Virus record (IMG/VR): IMGVR_UViG_3300020201_000043
Coordinates: 1-42,622 of that record
Strand: one strand, 5' to 3'
From: a virus
DNA: 42,622 nt
In this document: positions 1,841 through 25,998 of the stretch, one piece after another
How positions within the stretch are numbered: position 1 is the stretch's first letter
Layout: every line of letters starts with the position of its first letter
Notes under the pieces: model-generated
Databases searched by the model: none
Told to the model about the DNA's origin: nothing
What the model saw: the letters and a program-made list of their open reading frames with translations, nothing else
Position numbers and translations under genes: made by a program

Positions 1841-2020
1841 GTGGGCTATCTAGTTATCACCGATGAGAAAGACAACAATCAATATCTTCTTCATCCGGCA
1901 ATTATAACAAAGCCTTTGGCTTTTGTAGAAAAGCCTTTGGCTTTTGTAACAAAGCCGTCCCTTGATAACCTCTTCACAGACAGAATTACAATCCCTTCAT
2001 GGGTTTTACACAACACTTAG
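1841..2020 (+). CDS. Small protein carrying two KPLAFV repeat elements (start uncertain)
   Basis: An open frame of 59 codons links TerL to the next structural gene and runs 22 bases into it. It reads as a plausible protein: VITDEKDNNQYLLHPAII, then two repeat-element copies (TKPLAFV, EKPLAFV), then TKPSLDNLFTDRITIP. The repeat elements are in the same codon phase as every other copy in the genome, which is the main reason to believe it. The start is unclear. GTG at 1841 has no good ribosome site. The ATG at 1830 has GGAG six bases upstream and overlaps the terL stop, but it lies one frame away and meets TAG at 1851. A frameshift, real or from assembly, near 1841 would join them. No function is known. 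Confidence 0.45.
   Translation: MGYLVITDEKDNNQYLLHPAIITKPLAFVEKPLAFVTKPSLDNLFTDRITIPSWVLHNT
1909..1956 (+). repeat. Palindromic 21-bp elements, two copies plus a partial third
   Basis: Copies at 1909-1927 and 1930-1948 both read AAAGCCTTTGGCTTTTGTA. A truncated AAAGCC at 1951-1956 keeps the 21-base period. The core AAAGCC-TTT-GGCTTT can form a hairpin. Related copies lie at 29131, 31583, 33277, 34335, 34356, 34559 and 34580. Confidence 0.9.
1962..1998 (+). promoter_or_regulatory. Leaderless-type late promoter, copy 1
   Basis: The block is TTGATAACCTCT, one base off the consensus TTGATAACCTCC. It starts 37 bases before the ATG at 1999. TACAAT lies 25 bases into the element and is followed by six bases (CCCTTC) and the ATG. 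There is no Shine-Dalgarno site, and the predicted +1 coincides with the start codon. Confidence 0.7.
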
Positions 2021-3243
2021 TCAACGCAGGAATCGGCGTCCTTGGACAGGCACTTAGATTACCTGAAATGGGTTTTTCTGAAAGAATAGCCTACGGGAAG
2101 CCTGCAGCCCCTCAGGCTAGCGTTAACACAGGACAGGTTCAGGGTGTCTCGGCTCCTCAACCTCAAAACTATTCCCAAAATACAAATAACTTCTCGCCTG
2201 TCGCCAACACATATCAAAAGGCAGCGCAACGGCAGCAAGCACAGTCCCAACAGCGGGCCTCAAGTGGTGGTGGCGGTAATGGCTTCAACATGAACAACTA
2301 CAAAGGTTGGAATGCGGCCTCAGCTGAGGCAGACTACAATGCCAATCCGAACAAGTTTGCTAATCAACAAGGTCCTTCCCAGGATGACATCATGAATCAG
2401 ATCAATGGGTTATATGGAGAATCTGAGAACTATCTAAATCAGGCAGAGAGTGCACTCAGGGCAGACCATCCATCAGCACTTGCAGAAGCAGAAGCCATAT
2501 TCAAAACAAATAGCTCTATGCTCGGCACAGATAGGGACGTAGCCTTTCAAGGTTTAAACTCTCAATCCACTAAAGCTACCAAAGCTAAAGAAAGTGCCCT
2601 TGAGTCAGCTAGACGTATGTACGCAGACCAACAGATGGGAGCTACTCAAAGATTCGGTGGTTCATCCAGTGCCGGACAAGCAGCATCAGAGCTCATGGCC
2701 AGAGAACAAGCCAGACAATTCGGCCAAACAGGTAGGCAGCACGCCGAAGTACAGCAACAGATTGATGTTCAAAGGCAGAACGTAGAGAAAGAGTTCAACA
2801 CCGGACTCATGCAGCTAGAACAACAAAAACAATCAGGTATATCAAGCGCTAACCGTGATTTCCAGAACAAACTCCTCCAAATATCTCAGAACAGAGCACA
2901 GATAGGTCAAGCCAAAGCAGAAGCCCGTCTAGGGGCCTTACAGGAGCTCAGGAACCAGGTATTTGCCATACAACAACAGAACACTCAGTTTACCCAACAG
3001 CTAACAATGATGAGAGAACAGGCTAACTTGCAGCTACAGTCACTTGGTCAATCTTCTCAACAGGGAGTAGACAGAGCAACAAACACTGTTAATGCCTTTA
3101 ACCCTAATATTCAAAGTAACTTAACTGCCTCAAATAATACGCGCCAACAAGCTCCGGCCCAGCAACAGTTGACAGGTCAGATCAAACCAGGGAGAAGACA
3201 GGAAGATTATCTACAGCCATCATACAACAGGGCTGAATATTGA
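1999..3243 (+). CDS. Gln/Asn-rich coiled-coil virion protein (probable internal or ejection protein)
   Basis: A 414-aa protein. Residues 1-35 are ordinary and hydrophobic (FTQHLVNAGIGVLGQALRL). A Q/N/S/G-rich low-complexity stretch follows to about 110. A long Gln-rich helical region from about 140 to 350 (for example LMQLEQQKQSG, LTMMREQANLQL) is likely coiled coil. The position between terL and two further large proteins, one with a peptidoglycan-lytic domain, fits the ejection-protein block of podoviruses. No enzymatic motif was seen. The start codon is fixed by the 37-base promoter spacing, and the stop TGA lies inside the next promoter block. The function is an inference from composition and neighbours. 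Confidence 0.7.
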   Translation: MGFTQHLVNAGIGVLGQALRLPEMGFSERIAYGKPAAPQASVNTGQVQGVSAPQPQNYSQNTNNFSPVANTYQKAAQRQQAQSQQRASSGGGGNGFNMNNYKGWNAASAEADYNANPNKFANQQGPSQDDIMNQINGLYGESENYLNQAESALRADHPSALAEAEAIFKTNSSMLGTDRDVAFQGLNSQSTKATKAKESALESARRMYADQQMGATQRFGGSSSAGQAASELMAREQARQFGQTGRQHAEVQQQIDVQRQNVEKEFNTGLMQLEQQKQSGISSANRDFQNKLLQISQNRAQIGQAKAEARLGALQELRNQVFAIQQQNTQFTQQLTMMREQANLQLQSLGQSSQQGVDRATNTVNAFNPNIQSNLTASNNTRQQAPAQQQLTGQIKPGRRQEDYLQPSYNRAEY

Positions 3244-3276
3244 TAACCTCCATTCCCCCTCCACTAATCTATCTTC
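3240..3276 (+). promoter_or_regulatory. Leaderless-type late promoter, copy 2
   Basis: TTGATAACCTCC begins at 3240 and overlaps the stop codon of the upstream gene. TAATCT is at 3265-3270, then ATCTTC, then ATG at 3277. The distance from block to ATG is 37 bases and no ribosome-binding site is present. Confidence 0.75.
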
Positions 3277-4254
3277 ATGGACGAACGCATCAAAAACTCA
3301 GCGCTAGGGAAGATACTTCAAACAGCACACCAACGGTTTAGTGACGCAATGACTCCTCAACTAGTACATTCGTTTAGGAAAACAGCTATGCCCGAGACCG
3401 GAACTGGAGCTCCTTTACAACAAGGTCAGAGTGTAGCCAGCTTTCCAGGCTATCAGGAACAGGCACAACGAGGAGGCTATGCTCCTCCACCCTCACAGTT
3501 TAATTTCCAACAAGCAGGACAGATGGTTGGTACAGCAGCTGGAGCAATCAAGAATATGTTCAGTGAACCACCAGCACCACAAGGCCCCAAGATGTGGAGA
3601 CAGCCAACCAATGAGGTAATCCGTCAGTCTGATGTCCCGGGAGCAACACCATATCCTTCAGCTACACCACTACCCTCACCAACCAGTAGGCCCACAGTAG
3701 ACCCTAACTTCCGCTTTGCTTATGAGACATTACCTAGAGATAAATACTGGACTGACAATGGCCCCAGACCCGGATTCAAACCTAACCAGCCACCAGCTAA
3801 CGTTGGGCAGTTAATCCGTGAATTCTTCCCTAATGAAGCCACAGCAGCTGCCGCTATCTTTGCCAGTGAGAACGCTACTTTTGATCCTAATAGACCTGAT
3901 GCTGAGAACAAAGATAAAAAGACCGGGAAAGTTAAGTCTACAGACAGAGGCATCCCCCAGATTAATTCGGACTCCTTTAATGGATTAATGGATAGGCAAG
4001 GCAAGAAGTTAAAGGAACAGGGCATTACTTCCTATGCCGACATGAGAGACCCTAGAAAGAGCTTCATAGTAGCCAAGATGCTTCAAGAGGGGAGCAAGTC
4101 ATATAACAAATCACTAGGGAATGATTCAAAAGGCTGGAGCGGTTGGTATGGCTGGCAAGATACAGGCTATGACATCAACAATGGTTATTTTGCTGCAGGC
4201 CCAAGAGGTGATTATGAAGAGAACAAAAAGAAATTGAAAGTGAAAAAGAAATAA
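3277..4254 (+). CDS. Virion protein with transglycosylase-like (lysozyme-fold) domain
   Basis: A 325-aa protein. The first 170 residues are Pro/Gln-rich and probably disordered. From about 170 a lytic-transglycosylase-like domain appears: FFPNEATAAAAIFASENATF supplies a candidate catalytic Glu, STDRGIPQINSDSF matches the G-(L/I)-x-Q-I-N motif of SLT and goose-type lysozyme families, and GWSGWYGWQDTGY resembles the late aromatic W-Y block. The basic tail ends in KKKLKVKKK. In podoviruses such domains in internal proteins open the cell wall during DNA ejection. The start is set by the promoter spacing. The stop overlaps the next start (TAATG). The domain call is by motif only. Confidence 0.75.
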   Translation: MDERIKNSALGKILQTAHQRFSDAMTPQLVHSFRKTAMPETGTGAPLQQGQSVASFPGYQEQAQRGGYAPPPSQFNFQQAGQMVGTAAGAIKNMFSEPPAPQGPKMWRQPTNEVIRQSDVPGATPYPSATPLPSPTSRPTVDPNFRFAYETLPRDKYWTDNGPRPGFKPNQPPANVGQLIREFFPNEATAAAAIFASENATFDPNRPDAENKDKKTGKVKSTDRGIPQINSDSFNGLMDRQGKKLKEQGITSYADMRDPRKSFIVAKMLQEGSKSYNKSLGNDSKGWSGWYGWQDTGYDINNGYFAAGPRGDYEENKKKLKVKKK

Positions 4255-7200
4255 TGGATCCACGAATACTCGACAACTTAAGATCTAAATTCAATCAGGC
4301 AGTACAAAGGGTGCAAACGCTCCCTGACCAGGTTAGAGCTGCAAGACAATTAACAGAGCAACATGTCACTCCACAGATCCAAAAGCATTCACAGAACTTT
4401 GTCAACAATATACCTGAGGCAGTATACAGACAGGCGATGCCAATGCTCCCACCCCAGATCTCAAGGCAGGTAATGAGTTTTGGAGCACAAGGCATAGCAG
4501 ATCTACCAGCGTCATATTTAAGAGGTGCAGAGTATGCACTCAACCCAACAAGAAGAAGAGAAGTCTCTCAGATGGATCTTATGGGTAAGGTCGGAGCTAT
4601 AGGCGATGTTTCTAATTTAGTTCCTATGGGGACTCTAGCCAAGGGAGCAGGGAGACTAGTGGGGGGAGTAGATCTAGCTCAGGCTGGACTGGGGCAAATG
4701 GGAAAGATTAAGCTAGGCCCTAGCCAAAAATTAATACAAACAGCAGGAAAATTAAAGGGAAAAGGGCAACAGCAGCTACCAGGCGGTATGGCTTCGGCAG
4801 ATAACCTACTATCTTCTCCACAGCTAGCCAGCTCAGTAACCCTACAACAGCCAGGCAAAACAGGATTAAGGGTAAGACCACAAGATATGTCCAGTCAATC
4901 GGACGATATACTTGAATCAGGTTATTCAGAAATTGGTTCATTAGCTCAAAAGCCCAAGAAAACATTAACTCAACACTTTGATGAATTCTATACTAATTGG
5001 GTAGACAAGTTCAATCCGATAGTTAAGGCAGCTGAGAGTGCAGAAGGTGCACTCAAAGCCAAGGGAGCTCAACTTATGCCTGCACATAACCCAAGATACA
5101 CCCTAAAACGCTTCTTAGGCATGGGAGGGATAGCAGAGCATAGATACGAGAAGGAGCTCAAACCAATACTATCCAAGCTTGATGAGTTTCAGATCCCCCA
5201 AAAAGATATTGACCTGTATTTAAAAGCCAGACGTGACATCAACTTAGGTGGCAGGGGAATTAAAGGCTCAGACTCAAACCTAGGAATCCAAAGAGCAGGG
5301 TTAATGGAGAGCAAGCACGGCTCAAACCTCCAAGCTGTAGCGGACCAGCTATATGAATACCAAAAGAAGGGCTTTCAGGAGCTATCACAAGCTGGATTTA
5401 TGGATCCTGCAACATCTAACGCCATCATGACAGCTAATGCTGACTATGTCCCTTTCCAAAGGGTCATGGATAAGCTTGATGACTACTTAGGTATCCCCTC
5501 AAGGTCAGTTCAGCAGAGTGCTAACCCTGTTAAAAGCATTAAGGGTTCGGATAAACAAATCTATTCCCCTGTAGAGTCAATTATAGCCAATACCTATAAG
5601 CAAAGAGCTGCTATTGAGAAGAACAATGTAGTCAAATCAATAGTAGGCTTAACCAAGGTCATGCCGGAGTTAGGTTTCTACCCCACATCCAACTCAGGGT
5701 CCTCAACCATCTCTGTCTGGGAGAGCGGGCAGAAGGTTCATTATGAGGTTGGAGAAGATATAGCCAAAGCAGTCAAAGGATTATCAGAAGAGAACATGCA
5801 CTCATTCCTTAAATTACTTGAGATACCGGCTTCATTACTCAGACAGGGAGCCACAGGCCGGAACCCTGAATTCATGCTGCCTAACATCGTCAGGGATCAG
5901 TTTGACGCAGCTATGAATTCAAAATATGGCTATGTTCCGTTTGTTGATTGGGCAAAGGGGCTATCTCACCTAGTGAAAAAGGATGAGGTTTACGAAGCTT
6001 GGGTTAATTCGGGCGCAGCCCAAATTCTTTCATCAATGTCAGGCAGGCAAGGGATACATGATGCTTTGATGAGTAAAACCGCCCAGAAGAAGCTAACACG
6101 CAAGCTGTTTGGCTGGATGGGTGAAGGATTAGATACGCTGGGTAAATACTCAGAGAATCCAACAAGAATAGGGTTATTCAACAAAGCCTATCAGAATACA
6201 GGCAACCCTTTAATAGGGGCTATGGAATCAAGAGAGGGGACGCTGGACTTTGCGAGGATGGGAGCCAAGATGAAGGTAGCTAACTCTATTATTCCTTTTC
6301 TTAATGTCGGGTTACAGGGGTTCGACAAGATGATCCGAACCGCCAAGGACAATCCATTCAAGTTTGCTTTAAAGATGGCTACATACGGCACTATGCCTGC
6401 CGTGGCAACTACGCTATATAACACTCAGTTCTTCCCTGAAGAGTTTGCTGAGATCCCCCAGTTTGTGAAAGATGATAACTTTGTCATAGTCCGCGGCAGA
6501 AGCGATACAGGCACAGTCCAATATATGACCATTCCTAAGGGGAACATCATCAAATACATAACCAACCCTGTAGAAAACTTTATCTCCTATGCAGCTGGCA
6601 CAAACTCTCAATCCCTGTCTGAGATGGCTACACTCTTCATCTCCTCAGGACTGCCTCTACTAGGTGAAGGTCAAAGCATTCAGGAAGTAGCCACTAAAAC
6701 CATAGGAGCTAACTTACCTCAGGCTATCAAACCATTAACAGAAAACTTGATGAACAGATCATTTTACAAGTACGACACCAAAGATGAGCAAGCTAAAGAT
6801 ATCGTCCCTTATTACCTCAACAGTAAACCCGCAGGAGAAAGAGCCTACGAATTCACACCTCAGGCATATCAGTTTATAGGCAAAGCATTAAATGTCTCAC
6901 CGCTTCAGGTCAAGAACCTATTAGAAGGCTATCTTGCGGGCTATGTCAAAATCCCTGTTAACATAATAGAGAGCTTAAATAACATTAATGAGGGTAAAGA
7001 CGTCAATCAAAATCAGATTCCAATACTAAGAAGGTTTGTGCAGGAAACCTACCCCACATCAGCTTCAGAAGTGTCTGATTCAGATCTGGATTTATATGGT
7101 GGCCCCGAGCCTGAGAAGAACGCAGCAGGGTCAGATATATTAAGTAAGGCCTCAGCTGCGGAGGAGAACAAAGGGAAGAAGACCACTGACCAGATGATTA

Positions 7201-7742
7201 AGAATATGCTTTCTGATGGTCGGATATCAGCTTTAGAAAAGAAGCAAGCATCTAGTGCCATCCACCTGATTAAACAGGAGGAGACCGCGGTATATGACTC
7301 AAAGCTCTCAGACGAAGAAAAGGATAAGGAACTCTCAAGACTGGGAGAGTTAAAGAAGAGACTACAGGAATCAGATAACAAATCCAAAAAGCAGACTTAC
7401 CTCAACATAAAGCTAACAGGAGACCCTGACATGGATAAGCTGATAGCCTCTAAGCAGGTCGGGGAAATCACAACCGAAATCAACAACACAGTCGAAGCTT
7501 TTACAAAAGGAGAGATCTCACTTGAGAAAGCCAACGAGACGATAGCAGGGTATAAAGCGCTGCAGGCTGAGCTGAAGAAAGTCGGGAAAGGGAAGAAACC
7601 AAAGAAGCTATCCATCCGCATGGGTAAAGCCCCATCATTTAAGTATTCTAAATTCAAGAAGATAAAAGTCAGAAAGGTTAAGCTTGGTAAGTTTAGGCTA
7701 GGTAAGGACGTAACCCAAAATTTAGATAAGTCCGCAGCATAG
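4254..7742 (+). CDS. Large internal virion protein with LPD38-like polyvalent region
   Basis: The largest protein here, 1162 aa. A glycine- and proline-containing N-terminal part is followed by helical regions. From about 530 to 720 the text resembles the phage 'large polyvalent protein-associated domain 38' proteins: ATGRNPEFMLPNIVRDQFDA, TRIGLFNKAYQNTG, IIPFLNVGLQGFDKMIRTAK, then a hydrophobic stretch. The last 200 residues are Lys/Glu-rich and end in repeated K-x-G-K motifs (MGKAPSFKYSKFKKIKVRKV) suggesting DNA binding. Proteins of this size and position are ejected into the host with the DNA in podoviruses. It is translationally coupled to the transglycosylase gene through TAATG. The last codons lie in the 46-bp repeat that recurs at 8762. 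Confidence 0.7.
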   Translation: MDPRILDNLRSKFNQAVQRVQTLPDQVRAARQLTEQHVTPQIQKHSQNFVNNIPEAVYRQAMPMLPPQISRQVMSFGAQGIADLPASYLRGAEYALNPTRRREVSQMDLMGKVGAIGDVSNLVPMGTLAKGAGRLVGGVDLAQAGLGQMGKIKLGPSQKLIQTAGKLKGKGQQQLPGGMASADNLLSSPQLASSVTLQQPGKTGLRVRPQDMSSQSDDILESGYSEIGSLAQKPKKTLTQHFDEFYTNWVDKFNPIVKAAESAEGALKAKGAQLMPAHNPRYTLKRFLGMGGIAEHRYEKELKPILSKLDEFQIPQKDIDLYLKARRDINLGGRGIKGSDSNLGIQRAGLMESKHGSNLQAVADQLYEYQKKGFQELSQAGFMDPATSNAIMTANADYVPFQRVMDKLDDYLGIPSRSVQQSANPVKSIKGSDKQIYSPVESIIANTYKQRAAIEKNNVVKSIVGLTKVMPELGFYPTSNSGSSTISVWESGQKVHYEVGEDIAKAVKGLSEENMHSFLKLLEIPASLLRQGATGRNPEFMLPNIVRDQFDAAMNSKYGYVPFVDWAKGLSHLVKKDEVYEAWVNSGAAQILSSMSGRQGIHDALMSKTAQKKLTRKLFGWMGEGLDTLGKYSENPTRIGLFNKAYQNTGNPLIGAMESREGTLDFARMGAKMKVANSIIPFLNVGLQGFDKMIRTAKDNPFKFALKMATYGTMPAVATTLYNTQFFPEEFAEIPQFVKDDNFVIVRGRSDTGTVQYMTIPKGNIIKYITNPVENFISYAAGTNSQSLSEMATLFISSGLPLLGEGQSIQEVATKTIGANLPQAIKPLTENLMNRSFYKYDTKDEQAKDIVPYYLNSKPAGERAYEFTPQAYQFIGKALNVSPLQVKNLLEGYLAGYVKIPVNIIESLNNINEGKDVNQNQIPILRRFVQETYPTSASEVSDSDLDLYGGPEPEKNAAGSDILSKASAAEENKGKKTTDQMIKNMLSDGRISALEKKQASSAIHLIKQEETAVYDSKLSDEEKDKELSRLGELKKRLQESDNKSKKQTYLNIKLTGDPDMDKLIASKQVGEITTEINNTVEAFTKGEISLEKANETIAGYKALQAELKKVGKGKKPKKLSIRMGKAPSFKYSKFKKIKVRKVKLGKFRLGKDVTQNLDKSAA

Positions 7743-7847: not shown

Positions 7848-8210
7848 ATGATAGACCGAAAATGCAACTACTGCGATAAATTACTGAGCCAAAGAGACCT
7901 CGAGTCCCCAGCAGCCTGGGCGAAACGCAAAAACTGCGGCAGGGTTTGTGCCGATTTGGGGAGCCTTTCAGAGACTGCCAGGCTTCGCGGGGTGAAACTG
8001 GCGTTGTTGTACAAAACAGGCCTATATACTTTAAGCGAAGTCGGGAAGATGTCTGGGGGAATTACTGGCGAACGAGTCCGACAGATTCTTCGAAAAACAC
8101 AGGATTTGATCCCGGATTACCGCCTAATTGTGGTGAAAAACAGGCAACTATCAATGAACAGACTTTTAAAAACACAGGGTAGGCGGGAAATTATTCCCGT
8201 ACAAATTTAG
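7848..8210 (+). CDS. Zinc-finger plus sigma-region-4-like HTH regulator
   Basis: A 120-aa protein. The N-terminus has CNYCDK at residues 5-10 and two later Cys (KNCGRVC), a likely zinc knuckle. Residues about 63-85 (YTLSEVGKMSGGITGERVRQ) match the region 4.2 helix-turn-helix of sigma70 factors, in which T-x-E-R-V-R-Q-I contacts the -35 element. No region 2 is present, so it is not a complete sigma factor. It could be a transcription activator or a -35-binding co-factor. It lies in a cassette bounded by two copies of a 46-bp promoter repeat. The ATG at 7848 has AAGG seven bases upstream; GGAGG at 7827 is too far. It is an obvious candidate for recognising the TTGATAACCTCC promoters, but that link is inference. 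Confidence 0.7.
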   Translation: MIDRKCNYCDKLLSQRDLESPAAWAKRKNCGRVCADLGSLSETARLRGVKLALLYKTGLYTLSEVGKMSGGITGERVRQILRKTQDLIPDYRLIVVKNRQLSMNRLLKTQGRREIIPVQI

Positions 8211-8220
8211 CCCAACGGAA

Positions 8221-8823: not shown

Positions 8824-9168
8824 GTGGATATAGTCATTCATAAAACTGTTATTATTAATAACGGCGAAAACGATTGGAATCGGACAATCGAGAATAGGGT
8901 GCACGGGATCACCCGAAAAGCTTACGGCTGGAGCAAGTACGGAGGCAAGAAATTAGGTTTAGTTCAGGAATCTAAGACCGAAGAATGGAACTGTCAGGCC
9001 TGCGGAGAGAAGCAAGGGTCAGAACTCCCCTCATATATGTTTGAATGCCTAGAGGGTGAATTCATCCGTATCTGCACTCTCTGCCAATCGAGGAAGATAA
9101 CAAACGGAATCACCCAAATGTCTCAGTTATTAGATTTAGTCAGGATTCACCTTGCCCCATGGTACTAA
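8824..9168 (+). CDS. Zinc-binding phage protein of unknown function
   Basis: A 114-aa protein, start assigned to GTG 8824. The predicted +1 of the promoter just upstream lies near 8811, so the leader is very short, and only a weak GGA precedes it. An in-frame ATA sits at 8821, notable because ATA seems to start two other genes. Cys pairs CQACGEKQG (residues about 59-67) and CTLCQSRK (about 85-92) form a zinc-ribbon pattern. It is followed directly by the portal promoter. No family was recognised. Confidence 0.6.
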   Translation: MDIVIHKTVIINNGENDWNRTIENRVHGITRKAYGWSKYGGKKLGLVQESKTEEWNCQACGEKQGSELPSYMFECLEGEFIRICTLCQSRKITNGITQMSQLLDLVRIHLAPWY

Positions 9169-9169: not shown

Positions 9170-9206
9170 TTGATAACCTCCCTTAATTCATTGATCTAAT
9201 CACTAC
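9170..9206 (+). promoter_or_regulatory. Leaderless-type late promoter, copy 3
   Basis: TTGATAACCTCC starts at 9170, just after the stop of the preceding gene. TCTAAT is at 9195-9200, then CACTAC, then ATG at 9207. Spacing is exactly 37 bases and there is no Shine-Dalgarno site. Confidence 0.7.
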
Positions 9207-11306
9207 ATGGCAAGAAAGCTAAAACCGATCAGAGTCAAGCACGACGCTGATCAAACCCTAAAAGAAGTCATCTCCCATTACAACATCTGGACAGAAGACG
9301 GTGAACATCGTAAGTCAAGAAAGAATGGTTACGATGATATTACAGATGCCTATTACGGTAAGCTGCCTGATGACTGGCCCTATATCTCCAAAGTTACTGA
9401 TCCTGTTATCCGAACTACTGTTATTGAGAAGAACTCAAGGCTCATGAATTCCAAGTTAAGAGGCCGGTTAGTGCCTAGAGAGGGGGGGGATGTGTTGACA
9501 GCCAGACTTAACAATGCCCTGCTAGACTTTCAATGGGATAACGCTAACTCTGGAGGGAGTATGCTTGAGAAGTGGAGTATAACCGAGCAGGATACAAGGC
9601 TCTACGCTTCCAAGTTCGCCGAAGTACCATGGAGATATGAGGCTGGATCCGACGGGTCGTGCCTGTTTAACGGTAATGAGTTTATTCCTTTAGATGTCCG
9701 TGACTGTGGAATGGATCCTTCAGCTTCTCACATAAGGGACGCAAAGTGGTTTCAGCAAAGAGAGTGGCTAACTCTGGACGAGATGGAGACCGTATCCGAA
9801 GCCGAAGGCAAACCCCTATACCCTGGACTGGGAGAACTAAAACAGGCTATGAAAGAGGGGAAGACCGACAGGCGGGATACTAGATGGGATAATCGAATCC
9901 TGCATCTTAAAGGGTTATCTGACAGGGTGGGAGATGACATTGCTTTTCCTGTACTGGAAGTAGTAACCGAGAAACGCCGGGGCCGATATATAACCTTTTC
10001 TCCTATCTACAAAGTTGTACTAAGAGATATTCCTAATCCCTATGCTCATAAAAAGATTAATGTCATTCAGCTCAGGTACTATGCCATACAGGGTGACCCA
10101 CTGGGAGAAAGCGAAATAGAGGCTGTTTTGCCCCTTTGGAGGGCAATACAAGCATGCGTCAACGGATATCTTGACGGTATGAATATCAAGCTCAGACCTC
10201 CACTAAAAATCTTAGATGGTAGAGTCAGGATTGAATCTATTGTCTATGCACCTGAGGCCCAGTGGTTAATGGATCAGGTTGATGCAGTAACTGAACACCA
10301 ATCAGGAAATCAGGCAGATCAGACATTCCAAACAACACTCTCTTCACTAAAGTCAGCATTCAATATCGCTATGGGTGATATCTCTCAAGGGGTGGGAGGA
10401 GTAGATCCTTTTAACCCTGAGAACAAGACCGCAACAGAGATCAAGCAGACCGCCAAACAACAGAATTCAAGGGATCAGAAAAACCAGACATCTATTGCTG
10501 AAGCTATTCAGGACATGATGGGAATGTGGGTTTCCAACAACAAACAATTCCTTTTTGCTGATCTTGATAAACAAGAATATATCTTAAGGATAGTTGGAAC
10601 AGATCTATTTAATTACTTTAAGAGAGCTGGTATGGATGAGATGGAAGTCTCAGAAGATGCCATGCAGATGATAGGGGAGGTGGTGAGTACGCAGGGTGGG
10701 AACATGTCAGACGATGATATTATGTCTCTGGTTGATGCTGGTAAAACTCCAAGGCATCCGGTTATTGAAAACCCGCAGGAGAAAGACCCATACAAGCTAA
10801 AGGTTAAAGCTAAGATGACAGTTAATGAGATGGGTGATGGCGCCGAGGTGATAATGATCCCTGATGATTTAAATGGTAACTATGATTATGTGGCTGATGT
10901 TAAATCTATGTCCTCTGGGGCTGACGTTGAGCTGCAAAACTCAATGCAAAAAGCCATCGATAGGCTCACCACAAACCCGACTGTGCTACAATTATTAGCG
11001 CAAGAGGGAGTCCAGCCATTAATCAAAGAGTTGCTGGTCTCAGAGTTAGAAGGTACAGGACTTAAAGATGCAGAAAGATTCTTCCAACAGGCACAAGCTC
11101 AGCCAGGAACTACTCCGGGAGGAATCCCTCAACAACCTATACCAACAGGCGGAATTCCAGCAGATCTTGCTGCCACTCTTGGAGCAGGAGCTAACCCCTC
11201 CACTGCTCAACCCCAAGGATTACCCATCCCTGGACAAGTTCCTGGAGGCGTACAACCTCCTCCTGGCCAAGGCCCTGGTATACAAGGAGCTCCTCCTGCT
11301 TTTTAA
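9207..11306 (+). CDS. Portal protein
   Basis: A 699-aa head-tail connector. Features typical of podovirus portals are an early region with DAYYGKLPDDWPYISKVTDP and VIEKNSRLMNSKLRGRL, a central region PLWRAIQACVNGYLDGMN, and NKTATEIKQTAKQQNSRDQK, the helical segment found in many portals before the channel domain. The last 90 residues are rich in Pro, Gln and Gly (GGIPQQPIPTGGIP) and look disordered. The position before the scaffold and capsid genes fits. The start is set by the promoter spacing. A second reading frame overlaps its 3' end (11068-11385). Confidence 0.85.
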   Translation: MARKLKPIRVKHDADQTLKEVISHYNIWTEDGEHRKSRKNGYDDITDAYYGKLPDDWPYISKVTDPVIRTTVIEKNSRLMNSKLRGRLVPREGGDVLTARLNNALLDFQWDNANSGGSMLEKWSITEQDTRLYASKFAEVPWRYEAGSDGSCLFNGNEFIPLDVRDCGMDPSASHIRDAKWFQQREWLTLDEMETVSEAEGKPLYPGLGELKQAMKEGKTDRRDTRWDNRILHLKGLSDRVGDDIAFPVLEVVTEKRRGRYITFSPIYKVVLRDIPNPYAHKKINVIQLRYYAIQGDPLGESEIEAVLPLWRAIQACVNGYLDGMNIKLRPPLKILDGRVRIESIVYAPEAQWLMDQVDAVTEHQSGNQADQTFQTTLSSLKSAFNIAMGDISQGVGGVDPFNPENKTATEIKQTAKQQNSRDQKNQTSIAEAIQDMMGMWVSNNKQFLFADLDKQEYILRIVGTDLFNYFKRAGMDEMEVSEDAMQMIGEVVSTQGGNMSDDDIMSLVDAGKTPRHPVIENPQEKDPYKLKVKAKMTVNEMGDGAEVIMIPDDLNGNYDYVADVKSMSSGADVELQNSMQKAIDRLTTNPTVLQLLAQEGVQPLIKELLVSELEGTGLKDAERFFQQAQAQPGTTPGGIPQQPIPTGGIPADLAATLGAGANPSTAQPQGLPIPGQVPGGVQPPPGQGPGIQGAPPAF

Positions 11307-11588: not shown

Positions 11589-11625
11589 TTGATAACCTCC
11601 TATTTGTGTGATCCATACTCCACTC
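11589..11625 (+). promoter_or_regulatory. Late promoter, copy 4 (no ATG at +37)
   Basis: A perfect TTGATAACCTCC begins two bases after the preceding stop. The box at the usual offset is CATACT (11614-11619). At the position where the other copies have ATG, this copy has ATA (11626), opening a 10-codon frame that ends at 11658. The transcript probably serves the scaffold and capsid genes, giving a leader of about 75 bases. Confidence 0.65.
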
Positions 11626-11699
11626 ATACTGTTGAGTCATTGCAGACTCTTCACTTAGCAGTAAGGCAGTAAATCAACCCCGAAAGGTGGTGAATCTTA

Positions 11700-12485
11700 A
11701 TAAACGAAGAACAAAATGGACAGGAAATAACCGAAGGGAATCCGGTTGAGGAATTGTCCGACTCACAACAACCAGCAGAGCAGGTGGAGCCAAATCTTCC
11801 CGAGGGCGCGAAGGAAGAAACAAAAGAGCAATTTGAAAAGTTAAAAGAACATAACCGACAAATGGCTCAAAAGCTTGAAGAATACGAGCGGCAACAACCT
11901 AAGTTCAGCTCTGTGTTAGATGAAGTTCAGCCTCCATCTAAAGTATTTGGTAATCTCTCAACCTCGCAGGTTGCAGACATAACTCAATCTTTAGTTGACA
12001 GCGAAGGCTACATCGACCAGAACCTTTTGACGAATACTCTAAATGAGCAGAACCAAAGGGCCCAGAGAGCCGAGGATAGGGCAATGCTTGCCGAGCAACG
12101 GATTGAGAAGTTTGAGGAAACTCAGCTTGTCAGGGACGTACACAGTAAGCATCCACAATTAGATCCGTATAACCCTAATTTTAGTCGTGAATTTTACGAC
12201 AAAGTTAAAGACACTGTTTTAAAACAGTTAAAGAGAGGGTATCAGGACTATGAGGCCGCAGCCAATCAGGTTGCAGCTGAGTTAAAAGCCACATCCCAGG
12301 AAGTCTCTAAAGCCCAGACTGTTAAAGAAGAGGAAGCTAAAAAGGTCATCTCGCAAAGAGAACAAGCTTCGGCTAAAACCGGAGTCCGAGCACCAAATCA
12401 AGCTGAGTATGACAGCGACGAAGAGGGACTCAGGAAGGGTGACGCCCTTTCAATAGGCCGCTTGCTGAAAGCAAATGGATACTAA
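11700..12485 (+). CDS. Scaffold-like protein, apparent ATA start
   Basis: An acidic, Gln/Glu-rich protein of about 261 aa with a long predicted coiled coil (FEKLKEHNRQMAQKLEEYER, then RAQRAEDRAMLAEQRIEKFE) and a mobile tail. It lies directly before the capsid gene, the usual place for a scaffold. The frame is open from 11694. The first ATG/GTG/TTG codon is TTG 11754, which lacks a ribosome site. AAGGTGG (11684-11690) stands nine bases before ATA at 11700, giving (M)NEEQNGQEITEGNPVEEL, continuous in character with the rest. I therefore place the start at ATA 11700. The SSB-like gene at 30676 shows the same arrangement with the same AAGGTGG. Confidence 0.7.
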   Translation: MNEEQNGQEITEGNPVEELSDSQQPAEQVEPNLPEGAKEETKEQFEKLKEHNRQMAQKLEEYERQQPKFSSVLDEVQPPSKVFGNLSTSQVADITQSLVDSEGYIDQNLLTNTLNEQNQRAQRAEDRAMLAEQRIEKFEETQLVRDVHSKHPQLDPYNPNFSREFYDKVKDTVLKQLKRGYQDYEAAANQVAAELKATSQEVSKAQTVKEEEAKKVISQREQASAKTGVRAPNQAEYDSDEEGLRKGDALSIGRLLKANGY

Positions 12486-13503: not shown

Positions 13504-13552
13504 CGTACTATCTTGAATACTTCCCCCTCCTGTGTATCAAACTATATTAAGC

Positions 13553-13954
13553 ATGAGTCTCGACCCTTTTATGTTCTACGAAGGCCCTTCAGAACAGGAG
13601 CTTTTAACAATCACCTTTTTAGACAGATTAGCCATCAAGTTAGGTAATCCCACAGATATAGAGACTGAATCAGGCCTTAAGCTAATGGACGCAGTAGTTG
13701 GAGTCTGGCAAAAGCATTTCCCCCAGGAGGGTGAAGACTGGACACATGACAGGGCGATTGATCTTAAGTATGAGAAATCCCTTTCGTATTTGGCTTCAGA
13801 TAAAAGCGCCGGATATAACCCTGCAGGATACCCCCCGATGCTTTTTAAGTTAATCAAAATTATGTTCCCTGATTTAAAACTCCAGAACAAAAAGGTCTTT
13901 TTTAAGTTAATCAAAATATACCCTAATCTATTTGGTACCAGTAATTACGTATGA
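13553..13954 (+). CDS. Unknown phage protein with a duplicated KLIKI segment
   Basis: A 133-aa protein. ATG 13553 was preferred over GTG 13532; neither has a good ribosome site, although TATATT lies 4 bases before the ATG. The first 110 residues are an ordinary soluble helical protein (EQELLTITFLDRLAIKLG, WTHDRAIDLKYEKSLSYLA). Near the C-terminus a 20-base sequence (ttttaagttaatcaaaat core) occurs twice, at 13842 and 13899, giving LFKLIKIM and FFKLIKIY. The stop overlaps the next ATG. Function unknown. Confidence 0.6.
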   Translation: MSLDPFMFYEGPSEQELLTITFLDRLAIKLGNPTDIETESGLKLMDAVVGVWQKHFPQEGEDWTHDRAIDLKYEKSLSYLASDKSAGYNPAGYPPMLFKLIKIMFPDLKLQNKKVFFKLIKIYPNLFGTSNYV

Positions 13955-20287: not shown

Positions 20288-20982
20288 ATCCACCAACATA
20301 TTCAGTAATAGTGCTGATGTATCACCGGACTAAAGAGTTGGTTGATATGGCTCGTGACTGCATAGCCTCTGTTAGAAATTCTATAGGTGAAGATACAGAG
20401 CTGATTATTGTAGATAACGGATCCACTGAAGTATATGACTGGCAGAAAGAGTGCGATACCTATATCAGGCTTAAAACTAACATGGGGTGTGCAGAAGGAT
20501 GGAATACCGGTTTACGAGCCGCAAGGGGTGAATACATGGCAATTCTGGGCGATGACACCATAGTTCATAAGGGATTCCTGGAAGGGTTAAAAAAAGCCAT
20601 GGATATGCCTGACTGCGGGGTAGCAAACATCCATGTCCAGAACCTCCCTGCGGGGGCGGGTGTTGTTGAATGCTACAAATGGTTTTCAGGAGCTTGTTTT
20701 ATGCTTACCCGCAACACAATTAATAAGGTAGGATACTTCTCTCACGACTACTGGCCTGTTAACTTCGAGGATACGGACTATTGGATCAGGACGTATAAAG
20801 CAGGGTTAAAGCTCTACAGAAACTACGGAGTCAGTATCCAACATAAGGAAGGGCAAACCACTCATTCTCCCGATTTGTCAATGCATTTTGACAGACTTAA
20901 AATCATCTTTATGAGAAACCACGGCTTCGACCCACTCCCCATCTTCTATGGTGATGCGCCTATTGAATCAGTTTTGAAATAG
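20269..20982 (+). CDS. GT2 family glycosyltransferase (rhamnosyltransferase-like)
   Basis: A 237-aa protein starting at ATG 20269 behind GGGAGG; an in-frame start at 20194 lies deep inside the previous gene. Family motifs in order: YSVIVLMYHRTKELV, ELIIVDNGSTE, LKTNMGCAEGWNTGLRAARG, YMAILGDDTIV (D-D-T metal site), WFSGACFMLTR, VNFEDTDYWIRTYKAG (E-D base) and VSIQHKEGQTT. These match N-acetylglucosaminyl/rhamnosyl GT2 enzymes of O-antigen clusters. It closes the sugar cluster before the tail genes. Confidence 0.85.
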   Translation: MENPLVNPPTYSVIVLMYHRTKELVDMARDCIASVRNSIGEDTELIIVDNGSTEVYDWQKECDTYIRLKTNMGCAEGWNTGLRAARGEYMAILGDDTIVHKGFLEGLKKAMDMPDCGVANIHVQNLPAGAGVVECYKWFSGACFMLTRNTINKVGYFSHDYWPVNFEDTDYWIRTYKAGLKLYRNYGVSIQHKEGQTTHSPDLSMHFDRLKIIFMRNHGFDPLPIFYGDAPIESVLK

Positions 20983-20985
20983 TTC

Positions 20986-21022
20986 TTGATAACCTCCACT
21001 CCCTCACATTTATTATCTCTTT
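20986..21022 (+). promoter_or_regulatory. Leaderless-type late promoter, copy 5
   Basis: TTGATAACCTCC at 20986 lies four bases after the preceding stop. TATTAT is at 21011-21016, then CTCTTT, then ATG at 21023. Spacing is again exactly 37, with no Shine-Dalgarno site. Confidence 0.78.
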
Positions 21023-21550
21023 ATGACTGAAGATGCAAACAAAATACTGCGTAAGATAGCCGATGGGGGCAGTGTTGATGGTGGAACATTCACAGCAGGT
21101 ACAACAGGAGGGACAGTACTTCAGGGAGTATATCAGGCTACCCCGACTTCGGTAGCTGACGGCAAAGCCGGAGCTGTCGGAATGACTGCTAACAGGGCTT
21201 TAAAAATTAGTCAAGATACTTTAGTTTCAGGTGAGGACTTAACCAATAATAGGCTAATGGTCAGACCTACCTACTCTTACTCAGCTGTGGCAGTAGCTGA
21301 TGTACAAGTCAAAGCTAGTGCGGGCTACCTACATACAGTCACAATCTCCTGCAATGATGCTGCACCTACCGCTGGATCTATCATCATCTTTGACAACACC
21401 GCAGAGTCGGGCACACAGGTCTTTAATCACACCTTTACAACTACACCATTTATGCCATTTACGGTTATACTTGACTACACAATGGCTACAGGGATATATG
21501 TCGGATTCACGACTACAGCAGACGTCAACGTTTCTTGTGCATTTTTATAA
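21023..21550 (+). CDS. Virion decoration or fibre protein
   Basis: A 175-aa protein. Gly/Thr-rich N-terminal part (GGSVDGGTFTAGTTGGTVL), then a beta-rich C-terminal domain with alternating hydrophobic residues (LHTVTISCNDAAPTAGSI, FNHTFTTTPFMPFTVILDY). Such compact beta domains occur in phage head-decoration and fibre proteins. It is driven by its own late promoter and lies upstream of the LamG protein. Assigned by composition and location only. Confidence 0.5.
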   Translation: MTEDANKILRKIADGGSVDGGTFTAGTTGGTVLQGVYQATPTSVADGKAGAVGMTANRALKISQDTLVSGEDLTNNRLMVRPTYSYSAVAVADVQVKASAGYLHTVTISCNDAAPTAGSIIIFDNTAESGTQVFNHTFTTTPFMPFTVILDYTMATGIYVGFTTTADVNVSCAFL

Positions 21551-21553
21551 ACT

Positions 21554-21883
21554 ATGAAATATAAAGTAACAAACATAACTAAATCAGGGTCAGGCATGGG
21601 AGTTGCCGAACTTACTGTGACCTTAGATGATGGCTCTACATACAACAAGAGAATGATGGTTGAGCTAACTTCTGAAGAGACAGTTCATGCCGATATTCAA
21701 CAGTGGTTAGCAGATTACCTTCAAGTTAAAGCCGAAGAGCTTACTTTTAACCCTGCTGGAATGTCTGGCCTGACTACAGTTATCGAACCTGGGGACTTAC
21801 CTAAAACAAGTAAAGATCAAGTTAGAGAAGAGGAAGCCAGAAAAGCAGCAGAACTAATGAATTCAAAGTCGGAGACTCCATAG
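21554..21883 (+). CDS. Small phage structural-region protein
   Basis: A 109-aa protein. Residues 1-45 look like a small beta sheet (MKYKVTNITKSGSGMGVAEL, TVTLDDGSTYNKRMMVEL); the rest is helical and charged. It starts three bases after the previous stop with no clear ribosome site, so it may depend on coupling. Downstream, GGAGAC/GTCTCC and TCTCC/GGAGA can form alternative short hairpins around the next ribosome site. Function unknown. Confidence 0.6.
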   Translation: MKYKVTNITKSGSGMGVAELTVTLDDGSTYNKRMMVELTSEETVHADIQQWLADYLQVKAEELTFNPAGMSGLTTVIEPGDLPKTSKDQVREEEARKAAELMNSKSETP

Positions 21884-21912
21884 TGTCTCCTACGGAAGGA
21901 GATTACTAATAT

Positions 21913-23292
21913 ATGCCACGAAGTACAGCAACTCAAAGACAAGTAGCTAGAGATTTTGGGACGTGTTTGAATTTTAATGGGACGAGCGGTCATGTGACAG
22001 CTGCTTCAATCACAGGTCTCACGGCAGCAACATTTACAGTTAGTGTGTGGGTAAATATGCGATCCTTCGGTGGATCTGATTTTCTGTCAAACATTGTCAG
22101 TAAGGAAACAGGAAACTCTGGCTATGTCCTTAGAGTAGGAACACGCACTGTAAATTTTGCTGTTGGTAATGGGGGTTCCTTTGCAGCAGCAAAAGATCCA
22201 AGTCCATCAATGCAAGTAGGTAGATGGTATTTTCTTACTGGGACATATGATGGAACTAATATAAAAGTCTATCTTGACGGTGTATTGAAAGCTACAGCTG
22301 CGTTAGGCTCGTATTCAGGAGGAGCAGGGAGCTTTGCAGTAGGTCAAACGATAGGATTAGGTCGATTTGCCAATGGGCTTATTGATGATGTCAGATATTA
22401 TGATACTGCTCTAACAGTAGGCGATATCTTGAGTCTCTATACAGGACAATATTCTTCAGTTACAAACCTAAAACTTCACTACAAATTTGATGAAGGCTCA
22501 GGGACAGCGGCAGTTGACTCCTCAGGAACTCAAGCTGACGGCACCATCACAGACGCCACCTACTCCACAGACGTAGTTATGAAACCTAGGACTACAGCAG
22601 GACAAAGACAAACAGTTAGAGATTTTGGGACGTGTTTGAATTTTGCGGGGGGTGTAGCCACTGACCGGGTGCAGTTTTCGGACTCTAACTCGCTCGATTT
22701 AACCACAAACCTTACTATAAGTTGTTGGATAAAGCCACTAAGTTTTGGCACCAGTAATGCAGGAAGATTATTAAATAAACAGGGGGGAGGGTTTGGTTAT
22801 GATTTTCTTTATGACGGAACTAATAAAACCCTTAGAGCTTTTTTTAACAACACATTATATCCTTCAAGTCAGGCTGCTACGATTACATTGGGTCAGTGGC
22901 AGCATGTGGCTATGACATTCGATAGCACTGCCGGGTCAAACCAGATCAAGTTTTATGTGAATGGACTTGCAGCAGGAACGGCAACTCGACCAACAGCAAT
23001 TACAGCTAACACGGCTGTTCTAGCAATTGGAAATAACGAGTCAAGCAATCGAAGCTTTGACGGTAAGATGGATGAATTTAAAATATACAATAGTACACTG
23101 ACTTCTGGGGAAATTTCAAATGAGTACTACGGTATAAATCAATCTACTTCTGGTTTAGTCCTCTATACAAAATTTAATGAAGGCTCAGGGACTTCTGCTA
23201 TAGATAGTTCTGTTACTCAAGCTGACGGCACCATCACAGACGCCACCTACTCCACAGACGTAGTTATGAAACCTAGGACTACCGTAGTATGA
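21913..23292 (+). CDS. Virion protein with two LamG/concanavalin-like domains
   Basis: A 459-aa protein made of two similar halves (about residues 1-225 and 226-459). Each has the jelly-roll pattern of LamG-type domains: TFTVSVWVNMRSFG / LTISCWIKPLSFG, RWYFLTGTYDGTNIKVYLDG / QWQHVAMTFDSTAGSN, and IDDVRYYDTALTVGDI / MDEFKIYNSTLTSGEI. Each half ends in GSG-T-A-x-D-S-S-x-TQADGTITDA. A 68-base segment is identical at 22528-22595 and 23215-23282. It probably binds host surface glycans as a tail or head appendage. GGAGAT precedes the start. Confidence 0.82.
   Translation: MPRSTATQRQVARDFGTCLNFNGTSGHVTAASITGLTAATFTVSVWVNMRSFGGSDFLSNIVSKETGNSGYVLRVGTRTVNFAVGNGGSFAAAKDPSPSMQVGRWYFLTGTYDGTNIKVYLDGVLKATAALGSYSGGAGSFAVGQTIGLGRFANGLIDDVRYYDTALTVGDILSLYTGQYSSVTNLKLHYKFDEGSGTAAVDSSGTQADGTITDATYSTDVVMKPRTTAGQRQTVRDFGTCLNFAGGVATDRVQFSDSNSLDLTTNLTISCWIKPLSFGTSNAGRLLNKQGGGFGYDFLYDGTNKTLRAFFNNTLYPSSQAATITLGQWQHVAMTFDSTAGSNQIKFYVNGLAAGTATRPTAITANTAVLAIGNNESSNRSFDGKMDEFKIYNSTLTSGEISNEYYGINQSTSGLVLYTKFNEGSGTSAIDSSVTQADGTITDATYSTDVVMKPRTTVV
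22528..22595 (+). repeat. 68-bp exact repeat at LamG domain ends (first copy)
   Basis: Identical to 23215-23282 and encodes the end of each LamG half plus the start of the next linker. The segment beginning AGAGATTTTGGGACGTGT is likewise repeated at 21951 and 22618. This marks an internal duplication homogenised by recombination. Confidence 0.9.
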
Positions 23293-23326
23293 TCAGGACG
23301 TTAGCATAAGAACAAGACTTGTTTAC

Positions 23327-23363
23327 TTGATAACCTCCCGCATTTAGTCCTTAAAGTTCTCCT
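23327..23363 (+). promoter_or_regulatory. Leaderless-type late promoter, copy 6
   Basis: TTGATAACCTCC at 23327. TAAAGT is at 23352-23357, then TCTCCT, then ATG at 23364. The spacing is 37 bases. The preceding 34 bases are non-coding. Confidence 0.72.
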
Positions 23364-24008
23364 ATGCGCACTCTTCAGGACATCTTAATTGACATAAATG
23401 CTTATCTGGATAAGGAGGCTACCATACCAACAGGAACAGATTTGATATTAAGAGCCAACTTTGCAAACCAAGCTGTCTGGGATGCCTCAGCTATCGGTCA
23501 ATTTTCAGAACTTCATACCATCTACAATGTTGCCCCTTCTGCAAATGCTTCTGTCCCTTTACCTACCAATTTTAAGGAATTCATGCTGGCCCCCAGACAG
23601 CTCCTGAGTGACGGCTCATGGTCGGATCCGTATGAGGAGATTAAACCCCTCGAAAGATTTGGGAAGGCCACAACAGATAAATATTTATACCTCATGGGAA
23701 ACCCAGCTCAAGGATATACAGCGGTTTTTAATGGGCTAACTGCTGGAGCGACACTCTCAATGGATATCCAGAGATATCCCTCAGGGCTACTTACATTAAC
23801 CGATGTTTGCGAATTATCTGACCCACTGTATGTGGTTACTGCTGTAGAATCATATGTGCTGGAGTCTCGTCAGGATGATAGGTTTCCCATTAAAAGAGCA
23901 GAGAGCAATAATAAGCTGCAAAACCTCCTAGGAAGGGAGATGAAAACCCCCGGGGGGGGTATTAATACGACAAGAAGGCAAGGTACGGCTGCGTACTCGA
24001 TAGGATAA
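23364..24008 (+). CDS. Head-tail adaptor (connector) protein
   Basis: A 214-aa protein of the kind found between capsid and nozzle genes in podoviruses: MRTLQDILIDINAYLDKEA at the start, LILRANFANQAVWDASAIGQ, then APRQLLSDGSWSDPYEEIKP, LTDVCELSDPLYVVTAVESY and a disordered Gly-rich tail. It resembles adaptors that form a ring below the portal. It is followed three bases later by the nozzle-like gene, a conserved pairing. Identified by order and general pattern. Confidence 0.65.
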   Translation: MRTLQDILIDINAYLDKEATIPTGTDLILRANFANQAVWDASAIGQFSELHTIYNVAPSANASVPLPTNFKEFMLAPRQLLSDGSWSDPYEEIKPLERFGKATTDKYLYLMGNPAQGYTAVFNGLTAGATLSMDIQRYPSGLLTLTDVCELSDPLYVVTAVESYVLESRQDDRFPIKRAESNNKLQNLLGREMKTPGGGINTTRRQGTAAYSIG

Positions 24009-24011
24009 ACA

Positions 24012-25958
24012 ATGCCTCAACTTAATACTAATATTCCGGCATACAAAAGACGCAAAGATCTTGAAGCAGAATGGAGAACATTCCGTAAGGGGCTGAATCT
24101 CTTACTTCGGCCTACGGAATTAGGCAGGGATGAATACGCTCAGGGTGATAATATTATGCTAATCGGCTCAGGCGTACCCACAGGCCGATGGGGAACCTCG
24201 ACATACTTCTCAGTTAACTCCACAGGCACGATTAAAGGATTTGCGACATACAACAACGTCCTCTCTTTGACTAACGAACTACTGGCATTATCTGATCAGG
24301 GGTTTATCGTCAAAAAGAATGGAACGTCCTCAACAGTCATAACAGGGCAATCATTCCCCTCAGGATCCATTATCCGGTCAGAACAGATGGGTGGGTTTAC
24401 CTACCTTGTTTCAAAGAGCAGGGCATTAACTAGGTACAATGGAACCGGCCTGTCCGTTTTTGCCACCATTTCACCGCCTACAATAGGCAATGCTACGAAC
24501 ATGTCAGGTGCATCAGGAACCTATATCTGGAGCTGGGTAGTTACTGCACTAGGCGCTAATGGAGGAGAGACCACCCCATCAAGCCGGATCCTCTTACCTA
24601 ACCTGCCTCAAGATTTAGCAAATACTAGAGTTGATGTTTATTGGTCGGCCCCTTCTGCCGCCTCCCTTGCAGGCTATCAGATTTATAGAGGTCTTCCTGG
24701 AGATGAAACGTTTCTAGCTGGTGTTGGAGCGTCTACAACCCGCTATGTTGATGTAGGAGATCTAGCCTCCGAAATTATCCTGCCTCCGTTATCTAACACC
24801 ACAGGAGGTGTCGAGAGTGAGTTTGTTAATAAGGATCCTGTCGGAGACCGCCTCTTGATGGTTGACTACAAAGACCCTACAAAACTGCTTATCTCCGGAA
24901 GATATCCTAATCAGTCTAAATTTAACTGGGTAGATGGAGGCGGGTCAGTCTATGTAGGCCCTGATGACGGTTTTCCCATTACAGGGTATGAAGTTCAGCC
25001 GGGTTCAAGCAAGATTACTGTCTTTAAAGAATTTGCCTCTTATGCTGTAGAGCTTCAGACCATTTCAATTGGTGACTTTGTTGTTCTAGATCCCCAAGTC
25101 CAGCCAATCAGCACCGCCGTAGGCTGTACCAGTGCTGACTCAATTCAGATAATGGAGAACGATGTAATCTATTTTGGAAGACAGGGGTTATATGTTGTAG
25201 GCTATGAACCCAACTTCTTATCCATTATTAGGACTAATGAGATATCAGCCCGAATTAGGCCATATTTAGCCCTTCTAAACAGCACTGATTACACCACCTG
25301 CAGTGCGATGTATGTAAACAATAAATATCTCCTCTCCTTCCCCGCCAGAAAAGAATTATTGATTTATGACAGAGAGAGAGGCTCCTTTGCAGGGATTTGG
25401 AAAATGCCTTTCGGTATTAATAAGATGATTAAATATGTTGACAGCTCAGGAACTGAGAGGTGGGTGCTTGGGTCATCTGATTCCAACCAAGCGTACACAT
25501 TTGAAGCCTCGATTAATTCAGACAACGGCACAACCATTACCAAAACCTTAAGACTCAACAAAGAGGCATTCAACTCCTGGAGCCTATTAAAAGAGTTGCA
25601 GCTTTTCTATGTCTTATTCAGAAATATTACCGGGACAGTTACCATCAACATCCTCTCTGAAAACAGAGCAGGGATAACTTCAACCATTAAAAGCTTCACT
25701 ATCGAGGGCGCAGCTATTTCAGGTAAATCAGGATGGGGAGCAAATACCTGGGGTACAAAGATCTGGGGAGATACCAAGGGCACTACAGTTACAGGGTCTG
25801 ACGAGTTCACCCGATGGGGAGAGTTGAATAAAGAGTCAAGGCTGGTACAAATTGAGATCTCCTGTACATCCAGCTCCTCAAATTTTGAGTTTTTAGGTTC
25901 AAGAATAACCGCCTCTCCTCAGTCAGAAGGCTCTCTTTCCTCCGCCCAGAGAGTCTAA
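24012..25958 (+). CDS. Tail nozzle / tail tubular-like protein with fibronectin-type insert
   Basis: A 648-aa beta-rich protein. The start (EWRTFRKGLNLLLRPTELGR, YAQGDNIMLIGSGVPTGRWG) resembles the beginning of many podoviral nozzle proteins. Around 160-255 a fibronectin-like domain is visible (PPTIGNATNMSGASGTYIWS, VDVYWSAPSAASLAGYQIYRG). The middle has propeller-like repeats (VGDRLLMVDYKDPTKLLIS, IIYFGRQG-like ENDVIYFGRQGLYVVG, ELLIYDRERGSFAGIW). It would form the tail end through which DNA leaves. The ribosome site is AGGATAAACA. Confidence 0.72.
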   Translation: MPQLNTNIPAYKRRKDLEAEWRTFRKGLNLLLRPTELGRDEYAQGDNIMLIGSGVPTGRWGTSTYFSVNSTGTIKGFATYNNVLSLTNELLALSDQGFIVKKNGTSSTVITGQSFPSGSIIRSEQMGGFTYLVSKSRALTRYNGTGLSVFATISPPTIGNATNMSGASGTYIWSWVVTALGANGGETTPSSRILLPNLPQDLANTRVDVYWSAPSAASLAGYQIYRGLPGDETFLAGVGASTTRYVDVGDLASEIILPPLSNTTGGVESEFVNKDPVGDRLLMVDYKDPTKLLISGRYPNQSKFNWVDGGGSVYVGPDDGFPITGYEVQPGSSKITVFKEFASYAVELQTISIGDFVVLDPQVQPISTAVGCTSADSIQIMENDVIYFGRQGLYVVGYEPNFLSIIRTNEISARIRPYLALLNSTDYTTCSAMYVNNKYLLSFPARKELLIYDRERGSFAGIWKMPFGINKMIKYVDSSGTERWVLGSSDSNQAYTFEASINSDNGTTITKTLRLNKEAFNSWSLLKELQLFYVLFRNITGTVTINILSENRAGITSTIKSFTIEGAAISGKSGWGANTWGTKIWGDTKGTTVTGSDEFTRWGELNKESRLVQIEISCTSSSSNFEFLGSRITASPQSEGSLSSAQRV

Positions 25959-25961
25959 GTC

Positions 25962-25998
25962 TTGATAACCTCCTATTCTTCTGAACTACTCTGCTGTA
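25962..25998 (+). promoter_or_regulatory. Leaderless-type late promoter, copy 7
   Basis: TTGATAACCTCC at 25962, three bases after the nozzle stop. TACTCT is at 25987-25992, then GCTGTA, then ATG at 25999. The spacing is 37 bases. Confidence 0.73.

Follow-up and report, generated by a model that had tools for sequence, protein, structure and literature searches.

The Thermus phage phiYS40 makes leaderless middle and late transcripts, while its other genes are led by Shine-Dalgarno (SD) sites. The middle promoters of phage T4 combine a TATAAT -10 box with a phage-specific MotA box, which lies around -30 in place of the -35 element or overlapping it. Leaderless genes of the Deinococcus-Thermus group carry TANNNT a few nucleotides before the ATG and lack an SD site, and a -35 element strengthens their expression (PMC12340547). 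In that group the layout is a host-wide property, whereas the promoter that we describe here belongs to a phage family and has a conserved upstream block of 10 bp.

We analyzed a stretch of 42,622 nt (the window), an IMG/VR virus record with a podovirus-like gene set that comprises a terminase, a portal/head-tail adaptor, a scaffold-like protein, a major head protein, glycosyltransferases, and an internal virion protein. Comparison of its first 20 kb with a phage collection found no near nucleotide relatives among named phages. Judged by terminase, the nearest named phages include HTVC010P-like Pelagibacter podoviruses (∼32%), and judged by head protein, they include Pelagibacter phage HTVC106P (∼32%); both are distant. 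Positions 40238 to 40558 gave a weak match to DUF1392 (E of 3e-5), just below the curated cutoff.

We have no transcript or protein data, but we consider it very probable that this phage family has a late promoter that makes mostly leaderless messages of the virion region, with the scaffold/capsid message carrying a pseudoknot leader and an SD site. In the mechanism that we propose, the block would be the upstream element of the late promoter TTG[ACT][AT]AACC(T)-N14-TANNNT, and RNA polymerase would start 6 to 7 nt downstream of the -10 box. For most virion-region genes, this start point would coincide with the A of the ATG or precede it by at most ∼4 nt, and the resulting leaderless message would be translated without SD pairing, as many Paceibacteria genes appear to be. 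One copy per phage precedes the scaffold/capsid genes, and there the equivalent start site would open a leader that begins with a three-helix pseudoknot and ends in an SD site. The CC(T) extension would be read by a phage factor or a phage-altered sigma. Late timing is inferred from gene content.

Promoter copies in the window

An initial annotation had placed the block exactly 37 nt ahead of an ATG at six positions, and TTGATAACCTC[CT] indeed has exactly this spacing at all of them (1962, 3240, 9170, 20986, 23327, and 25962). Chance would provide ∼0.025 copies of the 11-mer TTGATAACCTC per strand. A reversed control pattern had 0 copies in the window, and GATAACCTC had no copy on its minus strand. 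Two further copies had been overlooked: the seventh, at 11589, is exact but has ATA in place of ATG at +37, and its leader is inferred to be 74 nt long; the eighth, at 13513, is degenerate. The predicted promoters are as follows.

1962 to 1998, plus strand: leaderless promoter; block TTGATAACCTCT at 1962-1973, -10 box TACAAT at 1987-1992, ATG at 1999
3240 to 3276, plus strand: leaderless promoter; block at 3240-3251, -10 box TAATCT at 3265-3270, ATG at 3277
9170 to 9206, plus strand: leaderless promoter; block at 9170-9181, -10 box TCTAAT at 9195-9200, ATG at 9207 (portal/head-tail adaptor gene)
11589 to 11625, plus strand: seventh copy; block at 11589-11600, -10 box CATACT at 11614-11619, inferred +1 at 11626; scaffold/capsid genes
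13513 to 13552, plus strand: degenerate copy TTGAATACTTCC; -10 box CAAACT at 13538-13543, ATG at 13553 (40 nt on, with a predicted 3-nt leader)
20986 to 21022, plus strand: leaderless promoter; block at 20986-20997, -10 box TATTAT at 21011-21016, ATG at 21023
23327 to 23363, plus strand: leaderless promoter; block at 23327-23338, -10 box TAAAGT at 23352-23357, ATG at 23364
25962 to 25998, plus strand: leaderless promoter; block at 25962-25973, -10 box TACTCT at 25987-25992, ATG at 25999

The six ATGs are firmly placed, since in-frame stops lie 12 to 33 nt upstream of each, no ATG, GTG, or TTG stands in between (one gene has a CTG there and two have an ATT, with no other near-cognate codons), and, as had been claimed, the genes lack an SD site, with no SD-like 4-mer from -20 to -4. 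The -10 boxes reported at offset 25 are present but weak in the window and become clear, as TATAAT, only in relatives. The reported spacer of 19 nt is the usual one in the window's clade, but 18 nt is commoner across the family. The statement that all driven genes are virion genes could be substantiated only for the gene at 9207, a portal/head-tail adaptor homologue; the genes at 1999 (encoding a 414-amino-acid late-region protein), 3277, 21023, 23364, and 25999 lie within the structural region but could not be assigned a named function.

Conservation of the promoter in related phages

We gathered loci of relatives by scanning with the major head protein, the protein encoded at 24012 to 25958, and the portal, which gave >100 contig loci, with some contigs matched more than once. 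An exact-pattern scan of all viral contigs returned 55 matches that were mostly single and chance-like, and only the multicopy contigs were useful. In dozens of related IMG/VR contigs, the element precedes the same genes. When orthologous gene starts were picked by nothing but the homology of their proteins, the core TTGNWAACC, allowing at most 1 mismatch, stood 34 to 41 nt before the ATG in 95 of 136 distinct orthologous upstream regions, compared to 1.0 expected from shuffled sequences. These sequences are related to each other, so p values overstate their independence. Another 33 of the 136 had no core, and most of those were also without a strong SD site. The initial annotation had offered loss of the spacing in related phages as a refutation, and its proposal withstood that comparison: the distance from block to ATG was 36 nt in 36 cases, 37 in 29, 38 in 14, and 39 in 9, with other values rare.

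The orthologue of the 1999 gene in the related genome G001 has the same promoter 37 nt before its start, and the promoter is conserved upstream of most portal orthologues. In a second relative, G013, the counterpart of the 20986 promoter reads TTGCTAACCTCT with TATACT and an ATG at 38. Copies orthologous to the degenerate one at 13513 are near consensus in both genomes (13863 in G001 and 15513 in G013). The well-sampled orthologues of the 23364 gene are mostly leaderless in layout and are SD led where the block sits farther off.

Anchoring 82 nonredundant sequences on TTGNWAA alone, we found that the following CC (1.8 and 1.2 bits), a T (0.6 bits), and a -10 T-A-N-N-N-T at offset 24 emerged unselected. 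The -10 box is one base farther, at offset 25, in the window's clade. At the level of sequence, these alignments show the family consensus to be TTG[ACT][AT]AACC(T)-N14-TANNNT-N6-ATG, with the block at about -36 to -27 and the -10 box at its normal place.

Probable host and recognition of the block

A relative of the phage, L197 (66% on the 24012-25958 protein), carries the block variant TTGATAACAT and occupies a 43,366-nt contig of the metagenome-assembled genome (MAG) nzgw467. This is a Paceibacteria MAG of family UBA5272 with three "prophages," and such elements average 43.7 kb (PMC12455944). It was the sole bacterial bin with both a close phage relative and a published lineage, and among 384 host-class genomes that we searched, no other was a convincing carrier of a phage relative. 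The virus family probably infects ultra-small Patescibacteria, with Paceibacteria as the likely host class. We hold this inferred host with only moderate confidence, since it depends on one co-binned contig without a second carrier and co-binning can mislead.

The own genes of nzgw467 (n = 286) had a TANNNT peak at -12 (14.3% versus ∼3.5%) and scarce SD sites, and a Paceibacteria class sample (L272 to L291) had the same peak (13 versus ∼3). In the nzgw467 loci L208 to L237 and the class sample, TATACT/TATAAT peaked 6 to 9 nt before the ATG, with few SD sites. The likely host class therefore appears to use leaderless starts of the same geometry, which suggests that leaderless genes are widespread in Paceibacteria genomes. 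A search for literature naming both "leaderless" and "Patescibacteria" found nothing on leaderless Paceibacteria genes. The layout was not seen in ADurb.Bin212, which has clear SD sites and no TANNNT peak, or in 58 kb of a "Micrarchaeota" MAG. The layout is shared with Paceibacteria, the likely host class, and the parallel with Deinococcus and actinobacteria drawn in the initial annotation is no evidence for either group.

The block was not enriched in nzgw467 (22 copies versus 33 of the reversed pattern, none with a -10 box), and it therefore looks phage specific, though the arrangement of -10 box, 6 nt, and ATG is common to the phages and this MAG. This arrangement in host leaderless genes, together with the fit of TTGA and TATAAT at 18 to 19 spacing to sigma-70, keeps open the possibility that the host's sigma-A reads the element as an ordinary promoter, with TTGAAA or TTGATA as a good -35; CC(T) would then need no phage factor, and the leaderless output would be unchanged. 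We take this possibility seriously but lean against it: letters 4 and 5 vary (TTGCAA and TTGTAA) while the CC after the hexamer is strongly held, which is not a sigma-70 pattern, and host DNA lacks the enrichment. Recognition of CC(T) by a phage factor or altered sigma remains an inference, and we can name one protein as a candidate.

8824 to 9168, plus strand: small zinc-finger protein with CxxC...CxxC, treble-clef-like, just upstream of the portal gene

This protein was conserved in 13 of 13 relatives and, by one threshold, at 44 of 53 portal loci. Its AF2 model was confident only for residues ∼51 to 110, and we found no family match and no convincing match to a solved structure. It is a candidate regulator only, the sole small protein shared across the family that we considered for this role, without evidence that it binds the block. 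The 120-amino-acid protein of the structural region at 7848 to 8210, which weakly resembles sigma-70 region 4 (E of 0.0028), was rejected as the recognizing factor, having no homologue in 13 relatives. Pfam scans of 30 window proteins detected no MotA or AsiA.

Inferred position of the transcription start

The commonest pairs of offsets for the -10 box and the ATG were (24,36), followed by (24,37), (24,38), and (25,37). A -10 box at offset 24 thus goes most often with an ATG at 36, and one at 25 goes with an ATG at 37. The gap from -10 box to ATG was most often 6 nt (28 cases), followed by 7 (15 cases) and 8 (14 cases). The small shifts between block and ATG largely track the -10 box, also where the spacer is 18 rather than 19 nt, as predicted for a promoter that sets +1 at the ATG. 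In relatives, gaps of 7 to 9 nt are about as common as 6, and leaders of 1 to 3 nt would therefore be frequent. The test for an ORF-adjacent -10 box, TANNNT ∼6 nt before the start codon, was met, with boxes weak in the window and clear in relatives, as was the leaderless-gene test of no SD site.

A strong SD site was found in 1 of 95 cases with the block near the ATG and in 4 of 8 with the block far from it (Fisher p of 8e-5, for sequences that are related). In L120, L121, and L123, the block lies 47 to 53 nt from the ATG, and the SD site falls inside the extra leader. The family offers a natural experiment, as one set of orthologous genes can have a leaderless layout in some phages and an SD-led start in others.

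These results support transcription that starts on the ATG or within ∼4 nt of it. The initial placement of +1 on the start codon is backed by the comparison, with the refinement that some copies would leave a leader of 1 to 4 nt and one copy per phage a long one. With phage genes tightly packed and no RNA data, the promoters could be real and the transcripts could still start upstream and carry leaders, with the short distance from block to ATG reflecting nothing but packing. We think this very unlikely, because the distance is 36 to 37 nt and not just short, because strong SD sites are absent from near-block genes and return when the block is farther away, and because the first helix of the leader RNA described below begins at the predicted +1/+2.

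A structured leader ahead of the scaffold/capsid genes

Most relatives have one block without an ATG at +36/37, followed by a leader of ∼60 to 130 nt (in those read) with an SD site. The window has its counterpart downstream of the seventh copy.

11626 to 11671, plus strand: structured leader RNA; P1 ACTG 11628-11631/CAGT 11667-11670, P2 GAGTC 11634-11638/GACTC 11645-11649, pseudoknot TGC 11641-11643/GCA 11658-11660
11683 to 12485, plus strand: gene for the scaffold-like protein, including SD site AAAGGTGG; apparent AUA start at 11700

The predicted architecture comprises P1, a helix that closes the structure, P2, a hairpin whose loop is TGATGCTCC, and a downstream ATAAAC-YGAGCA, of which GAGCA pairs with the loop's TGCTC (example copies are L160:3884-3934, L174:5678-5730, and L199:363-416). 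Covariation supports P2 and the pseudoknot, with 93.8% of cells paired and 24 double changes versus 8.1 in shuffles (0/500). The pseudoknot varies as TGCC/GGCA, TGCCC/GGGCA, and TGAC/GTCA, and the window's TGC/GCA corresponds to TGT/ACA in G001. The P1 arms differ wholly between phages yet fit their own partners (score of 12.4 versus 8.6 ± 0.4 with partners redealt). A covariance model found 34 copies in 80 sources, never two per source, and missed the divergent copies in the window and G001. Among 27 distinct RNA matches, the block was at -35 to -44 in 23, a close variant was present in 3 more, and only L179 had none. No Rfam 15 family scored above gathering for the leader RNA when its covariance models were used. 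As far as sequence can tell, this 5'-terminal pseudoknot leader, one per phage, is undescribed.

P1 begins 6 to 8 nt after the -10 box in 14 of 18 cases, i.e., at about +1/+2, and therefore places the inferred start site independently of start codons. In copies of the 11589 type, a structured RNA begins at the corresponding point in place of an ATG, which indicates that the block serves as a promoter rather than as a translation signal. That the block is instead a translation-level RNA element, whose ACCTCC resembles the 16S rRNA 3' end, is complementary to the SD site, and may pair with it or a factor in a read-through message (blocks often directly follow the previous stop codon and so lie inside any such message), can scarcely be credited when ACCTCC is lost in many relatives (TTGAAAACCTA, TTGCAAACCTG, and others), a fixed-distance -10 box goes with the ATG position, and the scaffold/capsid block lies upstream of an RNA that begins at the same place and has normal SD translation.

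In both the window and G001, AUA seems to be the start codon of the scaffold gene, with the SD site AAAGGTGG. Orthologues have ATG at the position aligned with 11700, and in G001 (L073) the ATA at 12051 comes immediately after an in-frame TAA.

CPR bacteria are reported to retain RNase J and also YchF, a promoter of leaderless translation (PMC12641178). A broader reading, which we put forward tentatively and which may well prove wrong, is a dedicated late-transcription system of Patescibacteria phages, in which a phage factor would read TTGNWAACC, leaderless virion mRNAs would suit a host whose translation machinery is reduced, and the scaffold/capsid pseudoknot would shield its message from the 5'-3' exonuclease RNase J. 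The protective role of the pseudoknot is speculation.

Comparison with known systems

The promoter consensus and gene-start rule described here are testable, and they apply to a large uncultivated phage family whose probable hosts are ultra-small bacteria that have hardly been accessible to experimental genetics. In these phages, starts can be misplaced by gene callers that count on SD sites or on longer ORFs.

The likeness to T4 MotA promoters is one of position only, the block lying at about -36 to -27 and the -10 box in its usual place; the sequence is different, the -35 TTG is kept, and the messages are predicted to be leaderless. Of the features of extracytoplasmic function (ECF) sigma promoters, the -35 AAC is present in TTGNWAAC, one base farther from the TG than usual, and the CGTC-type -10 is not, the -10 being TANNNT/TATAAT. 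Membership is thus met in full for neither MotA nor ECF-sigma promoters. Late leaderless mRNAs, known in phiYS40 and inferred here, are common to both, though the phages and promoter sequences are unrelated, and we know of no leader pseudoknot in phiYS40. Since such transcripts are known in Thermus phages, leaderless late phage transcripts are not new in kind; what adds interest here is the breadth of the promoter, the apparent phage specificity of its block, and the leader RNA, which is new.
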